Source of the DNA: Allobosea sp. 67-29
GTDB lineage: Bacteria > Pseudomonadota > Alphaproteobacteria > Rhizobiales > Beijerinckiaceae
Reading direction: 5' to 3'
Length of the DNA: 64,000 nucleotides
Assembly: GCF_001898115.1 (NCBI RefSeq)
Contig: NZ_MKSQ01000014.1
Coordinates: 196,109 to 260,108, forward strand
This document shows, in pieces, positions 58,315 through 64,000 of this stretch; within the stretch, counting starts at the first letter, position 1; each line of letters starts with the position of its first letter. Position numbers and translations under genes: made by a program. The notes under the pieces were generated by a model. It worked only from the letters and a program-made list of their open reading frames with translations. It had not been told where the DNA came from and did not search any database.

Positions 58315-59499
58315 CTATTGCAGGTCTGCGAAGGCGTCGCGCAACCGGTCGACGGCCTCGGCGACGACGTCGCGCGGCGTCGCGATGTTGAACCGCAGGA
58401 AGCTTTGGCCGCCCTTGCCGAAGGTCGGGCCGTGATTGGCCGCGATCCTGGCCTGCTTCTCCACCCGGCTCGTGAATTCGGCCGCGTCCATGCCGGTTCC
58501 CGAGAAATCGACCCAGGCGAGATAGGTCGCTTCGAGCGGCATCGAGCGCAGGCCGGGGATCGCGTTCACGGCTTCGTCGAAGAGCCGGCGATTGCCGTCG
58601 AGATAGCCGTTTAGCGCATCGACCCAGGCTGCGCCTTCGGGGCTGTAGGCCGCCGTCGCGGTGACGATCCCGAAGGAATTCGGCGAGATGCCGAGCGCGT
58701 CCATGCGGCGGCGAAAGCGCGTCCGCAATGTCTCGTCGGGAATGATGACGTTGCCGACATGCGCTCCGGCGATGTTGAAGGTCTTGGTCGTCGACGTCAT
58801 CATCACCAGCCGGTCCAGGATATCGGGGGCTGCAACCGGCATGACCAGATGCCGGTTGCCCGGCATCACGAGATCATGGTGGATCTCGTCCGATACGAGG
58901 ATCAGGTCGTGGCGCTTGCAGAAGGCCGCGATCTCGCGCAGCTCTTCCCGCGACCAGACCCGCCCGCCCGGATTGTGGGGCGAGCACAGGATCAGCATGC
59001 GCTCGTCGCCGCGCATCAGGGCATCCCAGCCCGGAATGTCGAGGACGTAGCGGCCATCGGCGAGGGCGAGGGGGCATTCGACGACTTTCCGCCCCGCAGC
59101 CGCCACGACGCGCGCGAATGCATGATAGACCGGTGTCATCAGCACCACGCCGTCTCCCGGAGCGGTGAAGGCGTCGACGCAGAGCGCGGTGCCGTTGACG
59201 AGGCCATGCGTCGTGAAGATCGACCCCGGCGCGACATCCCAGCCGTGGCGGTTCTCCATCCACCAGCGGATGGCGTCGACATAGGCGCGGTCGTCTCCGA
59301 AATAGCCGTAGATGCCGTGGCTGGTCATGCCTTCAAGCGCGGCCTGCACGCAGGCCGGCGGCCTGAAATCCATGTCGGCCACCCACATGGCGATGCCGCC
59401 TTCCGACGGTACGCCATAGATCGATTCCATCATGTCCCATTTGGCGGAATGCGTGCCGCGCCGGTCGATGCGCTCGGAGAAGTTCGGAGGAGTAGGCAT
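58315..59499 (-). CDS. MalY/PatB-type pyridoxal-5'-phosphate aminotransferase (C-S lyase-like)
   Basis: A 394-residue fold type I PLP enzyme of the MalY/PatB branch, which includes cystathionine beta-lyases. The PLP lysine is in MTSTTKTFNIAGAHVGN, with SPHNPGGRVWSREEL and VSDEIHHDLVMPGNRH contacting the cofactor, and it starts NFSERIDRRGTHSAKWD. It would cleave C-S bonds of cystathionine-like compounds or transaminate. Start ATG at 59499. It is convergent with the alcohol dehydrogenase and divergent from the TusA-like gene, so it shares the control region with the sulfur cluster. Confidence 0.92.
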   Translation of the reverse strand: MPTPPNFSERIDRRGTHSAKWDMMESIYGVPSEGGIAMWVADMDFRPPACVQAALEGMTSHGIYGYFGDDRAYVDAIRWWMENRHGWDVAPGSIFTTHGLVNGTALCVDAFTAPGDGVVLMTPVYHAFARVVAAAGRKVVECPLALADGRYVLDIPGWDALMRGDERMLILCSPHNPGGRVWSREELREIAAFCKRHDLILVSDEIHHDLVMPGNRHLVMPVAAPDILDRLVMMTSTTKTFNIAGAHVGNVIIPDETLRTRFRRRMDALGISPNSFGIVTATAAYSPEGAAWVDALNGYLDGNRRLFDEAVNAIPGLRSMPLEATYLAWVDFSGTGMDAAEFTSRVEKQARIAANHGPTFGKGGQSFLRFNIATPRDVVAEAVDRLRDAFADLQ

Positions 59500-59767: not shown

Positions 59768-60007
59768 ATGGATGTTGTCGCGGCATCGGAGAGCTACGAC
59801 GCGGGCGAGATGGGCTGCGGTGAGCTCGTCATGGTGCTGCGCACGAAGCTTCGGGCCATGCCGGGGCAGGTTCTGCGCGTGGTCGCGCGCGATCCCGGCG
59901 CGTCCGAGGACATCCCGGCCTGGTGCCGCATGACCGGCCACGAGCTTGCCCGCCATGAGCCGGAAACCTACAGCTTCTGGATCCGCGCGCGGGCGAACCG
60001 GAGCTGA
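59768..60007 (+). CDS. TusA-like sulfur carrier protein
   Basis: A 79-residue protein with the TusA/SirA fold pattern (SYDAGEMGCGELVMVLRTKLRAMPGQVLRVVARDPGASEDIPAWCRMTGHEL). In TusA the sulfur-carrying Cys lies in a CPxP motif; here the equivalent position reads C17-G-E-L, so the CPxP prolines are gone but the Cys is kept. A second Cys, C53, is in the AWCRMTGHEL stretch. The ATG at 59768 has a weak ribosome-binding site, and a GTG or ATG nearby is possible. It opens the sulfur-relay-like cluster and is paralogous to the N-domain of the MetE fusion three genes on. Confidence 0.75.
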   Translation: MDVVAASESYDAGEMGCGELVMVLRTKLRAMPGQVLRVVARDPGASEDIPAWCRMTGHELARHEPETYSFWIRARANRS

Positions 60008-60038
60008 TCAACCTGGAAACGTCGCGAAGGAGCCTGCC

Positions 60039-60401
60039 ATGCCCGGAAAGTTCGTCGTCTCGATCAGCGTCGCCAAGAACGACACCGACAAGGCCACCGT
60101 CGGATTCGTCATCGCCAACGCGGCGGTGGCATCGGACAGGGAGACAGTGGTCTTCCTTTCGATAGAGGGAACGAGGCTCTCGCAGAGGGGCTATGCCGAC
60201 GACGTTCACGAGGAGGGTTTTGCACCGCTGCAGGAACTCATGACGAACTTCGCGGCAGCCGGCGGTACGATCTATGTCTGCTCGCCCTGCTTCAAGAAGC
60301 GCGGTCTCGACGAGGAGAACCTCGTCAGCGGCGCCAAGATCGTCGGAGGCGCCAAGCTCGTCGAATTCATGGGCGAGGGCATCCCTTCCATCAGCTACTG
60401 A
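60039..60401 (+). CDS. DsrE-like family protein
   Basis: A 120-residue DsrE/DsrF-like protein of the sulfur-relay type. The C-terminal half reads GGTIYVCSPCFKKRGLDEENLVSGAKIVGGAKLVEFMGEG, with C81 and C84; DsrE proteins carry persulfide on such cysteines. It starts 31 bases after the TusA-like gene with AAGGAG upstream and is followed after seven bases by a small membrane protein gene. TusA and DsrE pass sulfur to one another in other systems, so a similar relay is likely here. Confidence 0.88.
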   Translation: MPGKFVVSISVAKNDTDKATVGFVIANAAVASDRETVVFLSIEGTRLSQRGYADDVHEEGFAPLQELMTNFAAAGGTIYVCSPCFKKRGLDEENLVSGAKIVGGAKLVEFMGEGIPSISY

Positions 60402-60408
60402 GACCGCC

Positions 60409-60696
60409 ATGGGCCCGCGTCGCATCGCCCTTGCCGTCGCCCTTCTGGCGGGCCTCGGCTATCTCGGGCTGAGCTACCTGTCCTTCGAAATGCCCGAGAC
60501 CGTGGTCGCTGCCGAGGATTGCGGTTTCCTGCCCGACGAGTTCGTCGGAGCGGGCAAGCTCACTTATGGGTGCCGTCAGGCCTGGTGGATCCGTTTCCGG
60601 CATGACAAGGAGGTCTTCTCGCTGCCCCCGGTGGTGACGACTCTGGGTTTTGTCGGCCTTGCGGTCGCGGCCGCGCGGCATCGCCGGAGGACTTGA
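60409..60696 (+). CDS. Small two-span membrane protein of unknown function
   Basis: A 95-residue protein with two predicted hydrophobic helices (about 6-25 and 72-90) and a short basic end (ARHRRRT). The loop between them would be periplasmic and contains C38 and C55, which could pair. No known family is recognised. It lies between the DsrE-like gene and the TusA-MetE fusion, one base before the latter, so it is part of the same operon. It may anchor or feed the sulfur system at the membrane. Confidence 0.7.
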   Translation: MGPRRIALAVALLAGLGYLGLSYLSFEMPETVVAAEDCGFLPDEFVGAGKLTYGCRQAWWIRFRHDKEVFSLPPVVTTLGFVGLAVAAARHRRRT

Positions 60697-60697
60697 G

Positions 60698-62200
60698 ATG
60701 GAGCCGGTCGCGACCCATGCCCACGTCCCCGATACCGGCTTCGATGGCGGCGATCTCGACTGCGGCAACGGCCTGCTGCTGCTGATCCGCAAGCATATCG
60801 ATCCGCTGCCGCGCGGCGGCCTGCTCGAAATCCTCTCGACCGAGATTTCGGTCGACGAGGATCTGCCCGCCTGGTGCCGGTTGACCGGCAACGAACTCGT
60901 CTCCTGGACGAAGGTGCAGCGGCAACGCTCCTTCCTGATCTGCAAGGGAAGCCTGGCGGAGCGTGTCCGGGAGCCGGGCGTGCCGCCCTCGGTTCCCGCG
61001 TCACCGGGCGCCCAGCCGTCGCGGCATCGCGTGCCGCTCGGCGCACCGCCGATCCCCGCGCTCGCGGTGATGGGCATCGGCTCCTGGCCAAGGCCGCGCT
61101 GGATGCTCGAAGCGATGCATGCCCATGTCGAGGGCAGGCTCTCCGAAGCTGCCTTCCAGGAAACGGCTGACGACGCCGTGCGCCTGTCCATCGCCGCGCA
61201 GGAGCGGGCCGGCGTCGACGTCGTCACCGACGGAGAGCAGCGGCGAGACAGCTATGCGAGCTTCGTTGCCAGCCGCCTGGACAATTGCCAGCTCATTCCG
61301 CTGGTCGACCTGCTGCCTCTCGTTGATCATCCCGAGGAATTCGAGGCTGAACTGCGCGCGCTAGACATCCCGGCCGGCGAAGTCCGCCACCCGGCCGTTT
61401 TCGGCCGGCTTGCCCGCTCGCGCCCTCTGGTCGCCCACGAGGTCGATTTCGCGCGGAGGGTGACCGCGAAGCCGGTGAAGGTCGCGCTGCCGGGGCCCTA
61501 TCTGTTGGCGCGCACGATGTGGATGGAATGCATCTCCGATCAGGCCTATGCCAGCCGGGAGGAGATCGCGCAGGACATCGTGCGCATCCTGCGCGAGGAA
61601 ATCACCGAGCTGATGGACGGCGGAGCGGCACTCGTGCAGCTCGACGAGCCGGTCTTGTCGGAAGTCGTCTTCTCCGGAGCCAAGAGCCGGCGCTCCTTCA
61701 TGTGTGGCGCGCTGTCCGAGTCGCTCGGTCCCACGCATGAGCTCGGCTTCGCGCGCGAATTGCTCAACGCGGTGCTCGATGGCTTCCCGCGCGAACGCAC
61801 GGCCCTGCACGTCTGCCGCGGGAACTGGACGCCGGACGAGAGCGTGGCACTCGCCGGCAGTTACGCGCCGCTGCTCGAGACGCTGTCGCGGGTCAGGGTC
61901 GGAGCCTATCTATTGGAAATGTGCACGCCGCGCGCCGGCGAGATCGAGATTCTGAGCGCCTTGCCGCAGGATGCCCGCATTGGGATCGGCGTCGTCAACC
62001 AGAAGGACCCTGCCACGGAAGCCTCCGAGACGGTTCTGGCGCGGATCGAACAGGCGATCGATCTGTTTGGCCGCGAGCGCCTGCTGCTTCACCCCGATTG
62101 CGGCTTTGCCACCTTCGCCGACAACCCGATCTGCTGCACCGGCGCCGCGGAGGACAAGCTCGGCGCAATCGCGCGGGCGGTAGAGCGCCTGCGTCTCTAA
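60698..62200 (+). CDS. TusA-like domain fused to a MetE-type zinc methyltransferase core
   Basis: A 500-residue two-part protein. Residues about 13-85 are a TusA-like sulfur carrier with C22 in the CPxP position (DCGNG) and C60 in PAWCRLTGNEL, similar to the separate protein at 59768. After a Pro-rich linker (about 90-120), residues 120-500 form the C-terminal, UROD-like barrel of MetE (no MetE N-domain). The zinc ligands are intact: H371 and C373 (LHVCRGN), E407 and C468 (PDCGF). The substrate Glu E180 (DGEQRRD) and LDEP (about 315-318) are kept. It starts with GGAGG eight bases before ATG. The family includes methionine synthase cores and thiol alkyltransferases, so the substrate is open. 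Confidence 0.85.
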   Translation: MEPVATHAHVPDTGFDGGDLDCGNGLLLLIRKHIDPLPRGGLLEILSTEISVDEDLPAWCRLTGNELVSWTKVQRQRSFLICKGSLAERVREPGVPPSVPASPGAQPSRHRVPLGAPPIPALAVMGIGSWPRPRWMLEAMHAHVEGRLSEAAFQETADDAVRLSIAAQERAGVDVVTDGEQRRDSYASFVASRLDNCQLIPLVDLLPLVDHPEEFEAELRALDIPAGEVRHPAVFGRLARSRPLVAHEVDFARRVTAKPVKVALPGPYLLARTMWMECISDQAYASREEIAQDIVRILREEITELMDGGAALVQLDEPVLSEVVFSGAKSRRSFMCGALSESLGPTHELGFARELLNAVLDGFPRERTALHVCRGNWTPDESVALAGSYAPLLETLSRVRVGAYLLEMCTPRAGEIEILSALPQDARIGIGVVNQKDPATEASETVLARIEQAIDLFGRERLLLHPDCGFATFADNPICCTGAAEDKLGAIARAVERLRL

Positions 62201-62390: not shown

Positions 62391-62414
62391 ATATGTCGAT
62401 AAATCTAGACATAT
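62391..62414. promoter_or_regulatory. ArsR operator overlapping the arsR start codon
   Basis: A perfect inverted repeat ATATGTC / GACATAT with a 10-base spacer GATAAATCTA. The right arm includes the first two bases of the arsR ATG (62413), so a bound repressor would block its own synthesis. Confidence 0.75.
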
Positions 62415-62769
62415 GGAAATCGAATCGATCATCCTCGCCCTTGCGGCCCTGGCTCAGGGCACCCGTCTCGAGGTCTTCCGCCTGCTGGTTGCGGCGGAGC
62501 CGGAAGGGCTGCCGGCCGGGGAGGTCGCTCGTCGCCTTGCCGTTCCGCACAACACGATGTCGTCGCATCTGAGTATCCTCAGCCGCGCGGGGCTCGTTCG
62601 CTCGGAGCGCTTCAGCCGCTCGATCGTCTATCGGGCCGATCTCGACGCGTTGCGCTCGGTGCTGGCTTTCCTTCTCAAGGATTGCTGCGGCGGCCGCCCG
62701 GAAATCTGCGCGCCGCTGCTGGCCGAGCTCAGCCCCTGCTGCCCACCGAAGGCCATGACCGATGTCTGA
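62413..62769 (+). CDS. arsR: ArsR family arsenite-responsive repressor
   Basis: A 118-residue ArsR/SmtB repressor with a winged helix (about 30-75, GEVARRLAVPHNTMSSHLSILSRAGLV). The C-terminal cysteines C91, C92 and C99, and C109 and C110, resemble the CC...C arsenite site of ArsR proteins with a C-terminal sensor, such as that of Acidithiobacillus. It binds the inverted repeat over its own start and is released by As(III). It overlaps arsC by eight bases. Confidence 0.93.
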   Translation: MEIESIILALAALAQGTRLEVFRLLVAAEPEGLPAGEVARRLAVPHNTMSSHLSILSRAGLVRSERFSRSIVYRADLDALRSVLAFLLKDCCGGRPEICAPLLAELSPCCPPKAMTDV

Positions 62770-63289
62770 TCGCATCTACAACGTGCTGTTCCTCTGCACG
62801 CATAATTCCGCGCGCTCGATCATGGCCGAGGCCTTGCTCAATCATCTCGGGGCAGGGCGCTTCCAAGCCTTCTCCGCCGGCAGCGAAGGCGGGCCCGGGC
62901 CGAGACCGATGGCGCTCAAGGTGCTGCAAGCCGAAGGCATCCCGACCGATGGGTTGTCATCGAAGACCTGGGACGTGTTCGCGCAGCCCGGCGCACCGGT
63001 CATGGACCTCGTGATCACGGTCTGTGACCAGGCCGCCGGCGAGGCTTGCCCGCTTTGGCCGGGTCAGCCGATCACGGCGCATTGGGGCATCGAGGACCCG
63101 TCCGACGTTCAGGGCAGCGACATCGAGCGCGAACGCGCCTTTGTGACGGCGCTCCGCTATCTCCGCAATCGGATCAACGTCCTCCTGTCGCTGCCGGTGG
63201 CCAGCCTCGATGAGATGGCGCTGGCACGGCAGTTGCGGAAGATCGGGGAACTCGAAGGAGCGAGCGCCGGCCGCCCGGAGCGCACCTGA
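62762..63289 (+). CDS. arsC: Arsenate reductase, low-molecular-weight phosphatase type
   Basis: A 175-residue thioredoxin-coupled arsenate reductase. The P-loop Cys is C12 in LCTHNSARS, and the partner cysteines C88 and C96 (TVCDQAAGEACPLW) form the disulfide relay. It reduces arsenate to arsenite for export. Its start overlaps arsR, its stop overlaps the second arsC by one base. Confidence 0.95.
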   Translation: MSDRIYNVLFLCTHNSARSIMAEALLNHLGAGRFQAFSAGSEGGPGPRPMALKVLQAEGIPTDGLSSKTWDVFAQPGAPVMDLVITVCDQAAGEACPLWPGQPITAHWGIEDPSDVQGSDIERERAFVTALRYLRNRINVLLSLPVASLDEMALARQLRKIGELEGASAGRPERT

Positions 63290-63714
63290 TGGACGTAGTC
63301 ATCTACCACAATCCTGCCTGCGGAACGTCCCGGAACACGCTGGGCCTGATCCGGAACGCGGGCGTCGAGCCGCATGTCATCGAATATCTCAAGACGCCGC
63401 CTTCGCGGACGCTTTTGAAGCAGCTCCTCGACCGGGCCGGGCTGTCGGTCAGGGACATCCTGCGCGAGAAGGGCACGCCCTTCGCCGAACTCCGCCTCGA
63501 CGATCCCAGCCTGTCCGACGAGGCCCTGCTCGGCGCGATCGAAGCCCATCCCATCCTGATCAACCGGCCGCTGGTGGTATCGCCCAAAGGCGTGCGCCTG
63601 TGTCGTCCCTCCGAGGCCGTCCTGCCCTTGCTACCGCCGCAGCGCGGCGAATTCCGCAAGGAGGACGGCGAGCTCGTCGTCGATGCCTCCGGCCGTCCCA
63701 TCGCACTCGCCTGA
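63289..63714 (+). CDS. arsC: Arsenate reductase, glutaredoxin-dependent (ArsC/Spx family)
   Basis: A 141-residue ArsC of the E. coli plasmid R773 type. The catalytic Cys is C11 in NPACGTSRN, and the arginine triad that binds arsenate is seen in the C-terminal part (NRPLVVSPKGVRLCRPSEAV). It uses glutathione and glutaredoxin, unlike the thioredoxin-coupled enzyme just before it, so the two are not homologous duplicates. It is followed after seven bases by the efflux pump. Confidence 0.95.
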   Translation: MDVVIYHNPACGTSRNTLGLIRNAGVEPHVIEYLKTPPSRTLLKQLLDRAGLSVRDILREKGTPFAELRLDDPSLSDEALLGAIEAHPILINRPLVVSPKGVRLCRPSEAVLPLLPPQRGEFRKEDGELVVDASGRPIALA

Positions 63715-63721
63715 GGTCACC

Positions 63722-64000
63722 ATGTCCACCTTCGAACGCTACCTGACGGTGTGGGTCGCACTGTGCATCCTCGTCGGGATCGCACTTGGCCATGTCATGC
63801 CGGGCGCCTTCCAGGCGATCGGCTCGGTCGAGATCGCCAAGGTCAATCTGCCTGTCGCGATCCTGATCTGGCTGATGGTCATCCCCATGCTGCTAAAAAT
63901 CGATTTCGCGGCGCTTGGACAGGTCGGTCGGCACTGGCGCGGGATCGGCGTTACGCTTTTCGTCAACTGGGCGGTGAAGCCCTTCTCGATGGCGGCTCTT
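63722..64000 (+). CDS. acr3: Arsenite efflux pump of the ACR3 family, partial
   Basis: The first 93 codons are visible and the C-terminal part is beyond the right edge. The start MSTFERYLTVWVALCILVGIALG and the segment LPVAILIWLMVIPMLLKIDF, followed by FVNWAVKPFSMAAL, are typical for ACR3 in arsenic operons. ACR3 expels arsenite using the proton motive force. It is the last visible gene of the arsR-arsC-arsC-acr3 operon. Confidence 0.93.
   Translation, partial: MSTFERYLTVWVALCILVGIALGHVMPGAFQAIGSVEIAKVNLPVAILIWLMVIPMLLKIDFAALGQVGRHWRGIGVTLFVNWAVKPFSMAAL

Follow-up and report, generated by a model that had tools for sequence, protein, structure and literature searches.

Why should a MetE-type zinc barrel be joined to a TusA-like carrier domain in one polypeptide, and which element does such a protein handle? 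This question is raised by a four-gene cluster in a 64,000-nucleotide stretch of Allobosea sp. 67-29 (contig NZ_MKSQ01000014.1, positions 196,109 to 260,108, forward strand), hereafter called the window. The first-pass annotation, made from the letters of the window, had proposed a sulfur-fed thiol methyltransferase system. Based on the analyses below, we consider it very probable that the cluster has a selenium role. A more specific reading, in which it is a module for selenium acquisition and delivery to selenocysteine (Sec) synthesis, with methyl transfer at the zinc site of the fused protein (FUS), has in our judgement about an even chance. The four genes are as follows.

59768..60007, + strand: TusA1, a stand-alone TusA-like chalcogen carrier of 79 aa (Pfam TusA 48 bits, cut-off 28.6)
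60039..60401, + strand: DsrE-like carrier/transferase of 120 aa with a CSPC motif, C81/C84 (Pfam DsrE 57.6 bits, cut-off 22.7)
60409..60696, + strand: small membrane protein of 95 aa, which aligns with the N-terminal ~90 residues of TM180, a protein of related clusters
60698..62200, + strand: FUS, 500 aa, with a TusA domain (~1-85), a linker and a core-MetE barrel (~120-500) (Pfam Meth_synt_2 100.5 bits, cut-off 21)

A constant gene core and its relation to selenocysteine genes

The open reading frames (ORFs) and the Pfam matches bear out that this gene set is real, and the zinc ligands H371, C373, E407 and C468 of FUS, as well as C81 and C84 of the DsrE-like protein, lie where the annotation had placed them. 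We have collected relatives of FUS by a pattern scan of a genome collection and kept the best 80 of the 223 stretches encoding one, a set which is biased toward close relatives of the window's FUS and in which many loci are metagenome-assembled genomes (MAGs). The relatives show 59–82% identity and are nearly all full-length (L099 begins at residue 100). The fusion is no gene-calling artefact, since all 79 orthologues whose alignment reaches the N-terminal TusA domain possess it, and the neighbours do not vary freely: tusA, dsrE and FUS form the constant core of the cluster, and a DsrE homologue of at least 60% identity is found in 67 of the 70 loci having at least 4 kb upstream of FUS.

The candidate carrier cysteines are conserved as well. 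C22 and C60 of the FUS TusA domain are kept in all 79 covered loci (one is uncovered), and C81 and C84 of DsrE in 74/74 loci. TusA1 has C17 within GCGE and C53 within AWCRMTG; C17 is kept in 70 of the 71 covered loci (73 examined, two uncovered, one with Ala). One row of the TusA1 alignment (L112) is misaligned in its first part, and no counts were drawn from that alignment.

Genes for Sec synthesis stand near FUS in 4 of the 80 loci (L042, L071, L054 and L060), as searched with the Sec genes of the window genome over flanks of up to 10 kb per side. In the Bradyrhizobiaceae MAG L042, selD lies ~130 nt after FUS, and selB, tRNA-Sec, selA and fdhE follow on the other strand. In Paracoccus versutus (L071), selA comes ~80 nt after FUS, with trxB next to it; in Paracoccus aminovorans (L054), selA comes ~0.7 kb after FUS with a small predicted opposite-strand ORF between, trxB follows again, and tRNA-Sec is found at ~6 kb. 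In L060, tRNA-Sec and selB are ~1 kb from FUS. With curated models, the selD, selA and selB of L042 and the selA of both Paracoccus loci (L054 and L071) are confirmed, while an apparent selB match in L074 is EF-Tu by sequence and was dropped. Assuming one 6-kb Sec island per 5.5-Mb genome, roughly 0.34 such loci are expected by chance, which gives P(≥3)=0.005 with Paracoccus counted once. The deposited annotation of plasmid pFER4 of Paracoccus ferrooxidans has this operon too and reads TusA, DsrE, two hypotheticals, 'metE'/'methyltransferase', selA and trxB.

At the genome level, selA is over its cut-off in 33/33 FUS genomes (34/34 searched, the 34th, G256, having a 32% core-MetE match only), and E. 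coli alone is positive among 14 controls. For selD, which was searched together with metH in the window genome (G000) and the genomes of chosen loci, 31 in all, the count is 30/31. Base rates were derived for selD in proteobacterial groups, and the selA counts stand without one. In the class of the window genome, selD is matched in 80/372 genomes, many by long open frames; since the model also matches frames of ~700-970 aa, which are probably oxidoreductase-SelD fusions (compare TIGR04369), this figure overstates stand-alone selD. In the family containing Xanthobacter, selD is present in 12/12 FUS genomes and in 65/147 others (77/159 in total; Fisher p=1e-4, uncorrected for relatedness). The window genome itself carries a Sec island on another contig, fdnGHI-fdhE-selA-selB-tRNA-Sec-selD, in which selA, selB and selD are confirmed by curated models and the fdn and fdhE names were given by eye:

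Contig C8, 148001-167000 (L117): fdn-like, fdhE-like, selA, repeat protein, selB, tRNA-Sec, selD

Three genomes (G459, G460 and G340) have selA and FUS, and their best selD match falls in an open frame of 739-865 aa of the oxidoreductase-SelD type. TIGR04369, named 'fusion_not_SelD', serves as the comparison for such long frames, and the fusion may be a working SelD in these three genomes.

Taken together, the Sec-gene linkage and the Sec co-occurrence indicate that the element handled should be selenium rather than sulfur. The earlier proposal thus stands in part: a carrier-fed thiol methyltransferase remains a plausible idea on sequence grounds, while sulfur as its element is disfavoured by the linkage in 4/80 loci and the co-occurrence. 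The corresponding explanation, that FUS is a sulfur-fed thiol methyltransferase or a fifth folate-independent methionine synthase and the Sec link is incidental, could draw on the sulfur-carrier function for which TusA and DsrE are mainly known and on the core-MetE fold. MetH is over its cut-off in 27/31 FUS genomes and not in the other four; the former count speaks against a methionine-synthase role and the latter for it, and such a role is therefore neither demanded nor precluded. However, selA in all 33 FUS genomes searched, the adjacency to Sec genes in 4/80 loci, and one cluster whose YedE passes the cut-off for a putative selenium transporter speak against an incidental link, and we regard this explanation as quite improbable.

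In two of the linked loci (L042 11054-13104 and L060 12211-13154; names by eye), the FUS cluster is separated from selB by genes for a GcvH-like lipoyl protein and an additional DsrE-like protein. In L042 a lipoate-ligase-like gene accompanies the GcvH-like protein, and selD is on the FUS-cluster side. The GcvH-like/DsrE-like pair recalls the lipoyl carriers of sulfur oxidation. A sulfur-oxidation or thiosulfate module was considered for the cluster and set aside, as no Sox, Hdr or Dsr genes were recognised in the neighbour lists of 20 of the 80 loci, which were not searched for them systematically.

The fused protein and its family

CPxP is the active site of TusA. It is absent from FUS, which has DCGN instead, and from TusA1, which has GCGE, as judged also from the consensus of 36 FUS rows and 20 TusA1 rows; the annotation was right in seeing here a TusA subtype lacking the motif, with C22 in FUS and C17 in TusA1 as its cysteines. 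The Pfam match of the TusA domain in FUS is sub-threshold (PF01206, residues 27-82, 23.4 vs 28.6 bits). So is that of Meth_synt_1 (20.9 vs 27 bits), and we accordingly agree with the annotation that the MetE N-domain is absent. FUS reaches 81 bits against a cut-off of 929.95 for the MetE model TIGR01371, and stays below every curated core-MetE cut-off listed in NCBIfam (PRK04326, PRK09121, PRK06520, PRK00957, PRK06233 and others), the best being 159 vs 406 bits.

FUS belongs to the core methionine synthase superfamily (MesA-MesD-like) by both its zinc ligands and its homocysteine site. The four zinc ligands are invariant in 80/80 loci, and so are S129, E180 and D316, which correspond to the homocysteine-site residues of core-MetE named in PMC7857596. 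Twenty-nine paralogous core-MetEs from relatives keep the same zinc and homocysteine-site residues, except for E407 changed to Q in one. On the other hand, FUS has C278 and C336 in 80/80 loci and C197 in 79/80, while none of the 29 paralogs has Cys at these three columns (column 336 is gapped in 28 of them). These three cysteines, CGxx in place of CPxP, and the fusion to TusA mark FUS as a separate family.

The linker between the TusA domain and the barrel is variable. The AlphaFold model of FUS has a mean pLDDT of 79 and a pTM of 0.77; pLDDT falls below 50 at residues 277-280 and 470-479, among others. By fold, the model most resembles MetE enzymes and 3RPD; the latter is also the best PDB sequence match, with ~21-22% identity in the fold alignment.

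The hosts of FUS include alpha- and betaproteobacteria, Rokubacteria, Chloroflexota, Planctomycetota and Obscuribacterales, among others. Of 37 genomes examined in the window's genus, the window genome alone showed FUS; of the other 36, 31 have core-MetE-like matches of at most 35% identity and five have no match. Among 385 alphaproteobacterial genomes, FUS at 73% identity or more occurs only in G000, G337 and G340, and the fourth match, in G256, is 32% identical and covers the MetE domain only. The restriction to one genome of the genus suggests horizontal gain, despite the matching GC fraction (0.667 for FUS vs 0.668 for the window).

Exchangeable modules and a possible route for selenium

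Around the constant core, the neighbours are exchanged. Between dsrE and FUS, or upstream, one finds either an ATP-binding cassette (ABC) system of the PhnD-PhnE-PhnC type (29 of the 80 loci) or TM180/P540 (26 loci), while a single locus combines the two and 24 loci, some cut by contig ends, lack either. Among the 70 loci with at least 4 kb upstream, the respective numbers are 26, 24, 1 and 19. The ABC and TM180/P540 states switch at least 9 times on the FUS tree, which is a quick maximum-likelihood tree of 81 proteins (55 rows labelled, weak support at 25/78 inner branches, no shuffled control). In L090 a YedE takes their place, at 390.2 bits against a cut-off of 200 for TIGR04112 ('YedE family putative selenium transporter'). 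That the modules replace one another repeatedly while the core stays fixed suggests a shared function, plausibly uptake.

In the L034 example of the ABC system, PhnE is over its curated cut-off (266 vs 217 bits), and the PhnD-like substrate-binding protein (SBP) is over the phosphate/phosphite/phosphonate subfamily cut-off (154 vs 112 bits) but under that of the PhnD equivalog (158 vs 261 bits). Small tetrahedral anions are the ligands of PhnD-type proteins, and methylseleninate or selenite would be suitable cargo in this respect.

P540 is unrelated to the ABC module. It is an envelope protein of ~520 aa with a signal-like start and a C-terminal helix, exemplified by the following gene:

L040, 8415-9974: P540; 21 aligned sequences, 61-77% identity to the first, with invariant Cys367 and His371

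Assignment of P540 to a known enzyme family was tried and rejected, the PDB sequence search having given a single match (E 0.36). Its Pfam matches are weak (S-layer PF07752 in 2/21 members, best E 2.2e-4), and its best fold match, a Methanosarcina S-layer DUF1608 domain with E 2.5e-6, has a TM-score of just 0.20-0.30. TM180 is a membrane protein of ~170-180 aa in relatives and occupies the same place as the window's small membrane protein, which covers only the first ~90 residues in pairwise comparison with four relatives. Judged from these alignments, the small protein is probably a deletion remnant of TM180. P540 was not found in the window genome by a search that had no positive control, so that the empty answer shows little. 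With a half-length TM180 and no P540 match, the window copy looks like a reduced derivative: it keeps the carrier and enzyme core, whereas P540 and half of TM180 appear to be gone.

Two further neighbours were observed. A SufS-family cysteine desulfurase is near the cluster in 4/80 loci and divergently upstream of it on pFER4. A transglutaminase-like protein is near the cluster in five MAG loci (L078, L088, L090, L103 and L106, from Planctomycetota, Rokubacteria and a deltaproteobacterium), and a distant transglutaminase-like protein is present in Paracoccus, in L054, with which L123 is listed, and on pFER4.

How might these parts work together? The gene set, the invariant residues, the neighbour exchange, and the Sec linkage and co-occurrence come from the sequences, while we infer the modules' role as importers, the placement of selenium on the cysteines, the direction of methyl transfer and the identity of the imported compound. 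A selenium species would enter through the exchangeable envelope module (PhnDEC-like ABC, TM180 with P540, or once YedE), and conserved cysteines of TusA1, DsrE and the FUS TusA domain would hold the selenium. In the barrel, homocysteine (or the product) would bind at the zinc site, and a methyl group would move between homocysteine and TusA-bound selenium. The likeliest direction would be the demethylation of methyl-selenium that was either imported or formed by accident, for example Cys22-S-Se-CH3 + homocysteine -> Cys22-S-Se(-) + methionine. Selenium released in this way would then pass to SelD, which gives selenophosphate, and on to SelA. In a chemically attractive version, methylseleninate or methylselenol would yield Cys22-S-Se-CH3, the zinc-bound homocysteine would take the methyl, and the leftover perselenide would be the delivery form.

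Methyl transfer is probable in our view because a complete MetE active site with a homocysteine pocket is hard to explain in a plain carrier, and demethylation is chosen because it is the useful direction for a supply role. That FUS demethylates methyl-selenium has, in our judgement, a little less than an even chance. More tentatively, the whole cluster may be a system for aerobic capture of methylated selenium, in which interchangeable dedicated importers (PhnDEC-like ABC; TM180/P540) feed a carrier-tethered zinc demethylase, and the selenium stays on the TusA cysteine as a selenenyl sulfide until the perselenide goes to SelD.

The same linkage, co-occurrence and neighbour evidence would be expected if FUS were a selenium carrier without methyl chemistry. 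The barrel would then be a zinc-selenolate station at which HSe- or selenohomocysteine derived from inorganic selenium (selenite or selenate taken up via the ABC system) is kept until its transfer to SelD. Inorganic selenium would suit a PhnD-like oxyanion binder such as the L034 protein (Pfam Phosphonate-bd 165 bits), but the MetE zinc and homocysteine-site residues are kept throughout the 80 loci just as in the 29 paralogous core-MetEs (one E407Q), and we consider a pure carrier unlikely.

Several observations weigh against the reading as a selenium acquisition and delivery module. In 76 of the 80 loci, no Sec gene is seen in the available flank (up to 10 kb per side), and one FUS genome, G473, has selA yet no selD over the cut-off. 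In the family containing Duganella, selD is so common (167/195) that its presence in 7/7 FUS genomes is uninformative (p=0.33). Most selD genomes in the samples searched are without FUS, which is thus dispensable for Sec use; in the window's genus 26/61 genomes have selD, and FUS occurs in one of the 37 examined. Uptake-like modules are lacking in 24/80 loci (19/70 with at least 4 kb upstream), and the L034 SBP falls below the cut-off of the selenate-ABC model TIGR04553 (85.2 vs 250 bits). In Methanococcus, deletions of yedE, a Phn-type locus and other candidates revealed none that was absolutely required for any selenium species tested (PMC11097638), and YedE has also been considered as an exporter (PMC5322559); 'putative selenium transporter' is therefore a weak label. 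On the other hand, selenium depletion in Methanococcus raises the transcripts of a TusA/D system, yedE, a PhnU-type permease and a methyl-selenide operon (PMC11097638).

An exporting YedE would also suit selenium detoxification, in which FUS works in reverse and methylates TusA-bound selenide, with the methyl from methionine or another donor, to give volatile methyl-selenium, while TusA and DsrE gather the excess selenide. However, detoxification should not need Sec synthesis, which is at odds with selA in 33/33 FUS genomes, and the adjacency of selA and trxB in Paracoccus, together with an ABC system of the SBP-dependent importer type, better matches supply. We therefore hold detoxification to be very unlikely.

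Comparison with known systems and implications

The closest system in kind is that of the type I mlp clusters (type I MGC), with SdmABC in Methanococcus, corrinoid methyltransferases proposed for methyl-selenide salvage in anaerobes (PMC10418091, PMC11097638). They resemble the FUS cluster in being methyltransferase operons that track the Sec machinery, which is present in 87% of type I MGC species compared with 21.5% of bacteria, and in being proposed to free selenium from methyl-selenides and recycle the methyl. The type I clusters, however, use UroD-type Mlp enzymes and corrinoid proteins in anaerobes, whereas here a MetE-type barrel is fused to TusA and accompanied by TusA and DsrE, in hosts that are mostly proteobacteria among the 80 loci kept. 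No corrinoid protein or Mlp was recognised in the neighbour lists of 20 of these loci, and no search was aimed at them.

YedE/YedF (PMC5322559, PMC2432076) is similar in having TusA and DsrE domains in selenium-associated proteins, and YedE itself is found in L090. Yet YedF is a single SirA/TusA-DsrE fusion, linked to SelD, with CPxP stated for its SirA-like domain (PMC5322559), while TusA1 and DsrE are two separate ORFs with CGxx in TusA1, and no YedF model was listed for either (the presence of such a model in the library is unconfirmed). The TusA-MetE fusion and the other uptake-like modules go beyond that system.

With MesA-MesD (PMC7857596, PMC7005905), FUS shares a MetE barrel that lacks the folate domain and keeps the zinc and homocysteine-site residues. 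It differs in its N-terminal TusA domain, its three additional near-invariant cysteines and its low identity to 3RPD, which is called MesD in PMC7857596; the main text of that paper contains none of the words TusA, SirA, sulfurtransferase and fused. The L034 ABC system, finally, resembles phosphonate transporters in the PhnE and SBP subfamily cut-offs it passes, and differs from them in an SBP below the PhnD equivalog and in its location in a TusA-DsrE-MetE operon. No description of a TusA-MetE fusion or of this cluster was recognised in the open-access PMC literature searched. As far as this literature goes, the kind of system, a methyltransferase operon with a proposed role in selenium salvage, is known in anaerobes, while the novelty lies in the enzyme, the carrier fusion and the candidate importers.

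The surroundings in the window were judged incidental. After FUS (62413-64000) come arsR, an arsC of the low-molecular-weight-phosphatase type, an arsC of the glutaredoxin type and the start of an ACR3-like gene (the last by eye). An arsenic role was rejected, given a single ArsC match (L095) in the 80 loci, the ACR3-like gene not being among the queries. Divergent to the cluster (58315-59499, - strand) is a C-S lyase of the PatB family (392 vs 340 bits). C-S lyases might release methylselenol from Se-methylselenocysteine, but this one has only a 26% match in L090, and it was rejected as a part of the cluster because it is not a conserved neighbour.

According to recent papers, no dedicated selenium transporter is known. 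The cluster offers two candidate uptake modules that are syntenic with a core tracking Sec synthesis, and a possible chain of carriers leading from the uptake step to SelD, together with a chemically explicit methyl-selenium step, which makes the question directly testable in cultivable bacteria. If the more tentative reading, aerobic capture of methylated selenium, is true, the cluster would combine a dedicated selenium importer with a cobalamin-free demethylase that has its carrier joined to it. The selenium acquisition reading would also mean that a family annotated as methionine synthase, for example on pFER4, has to be renamed.

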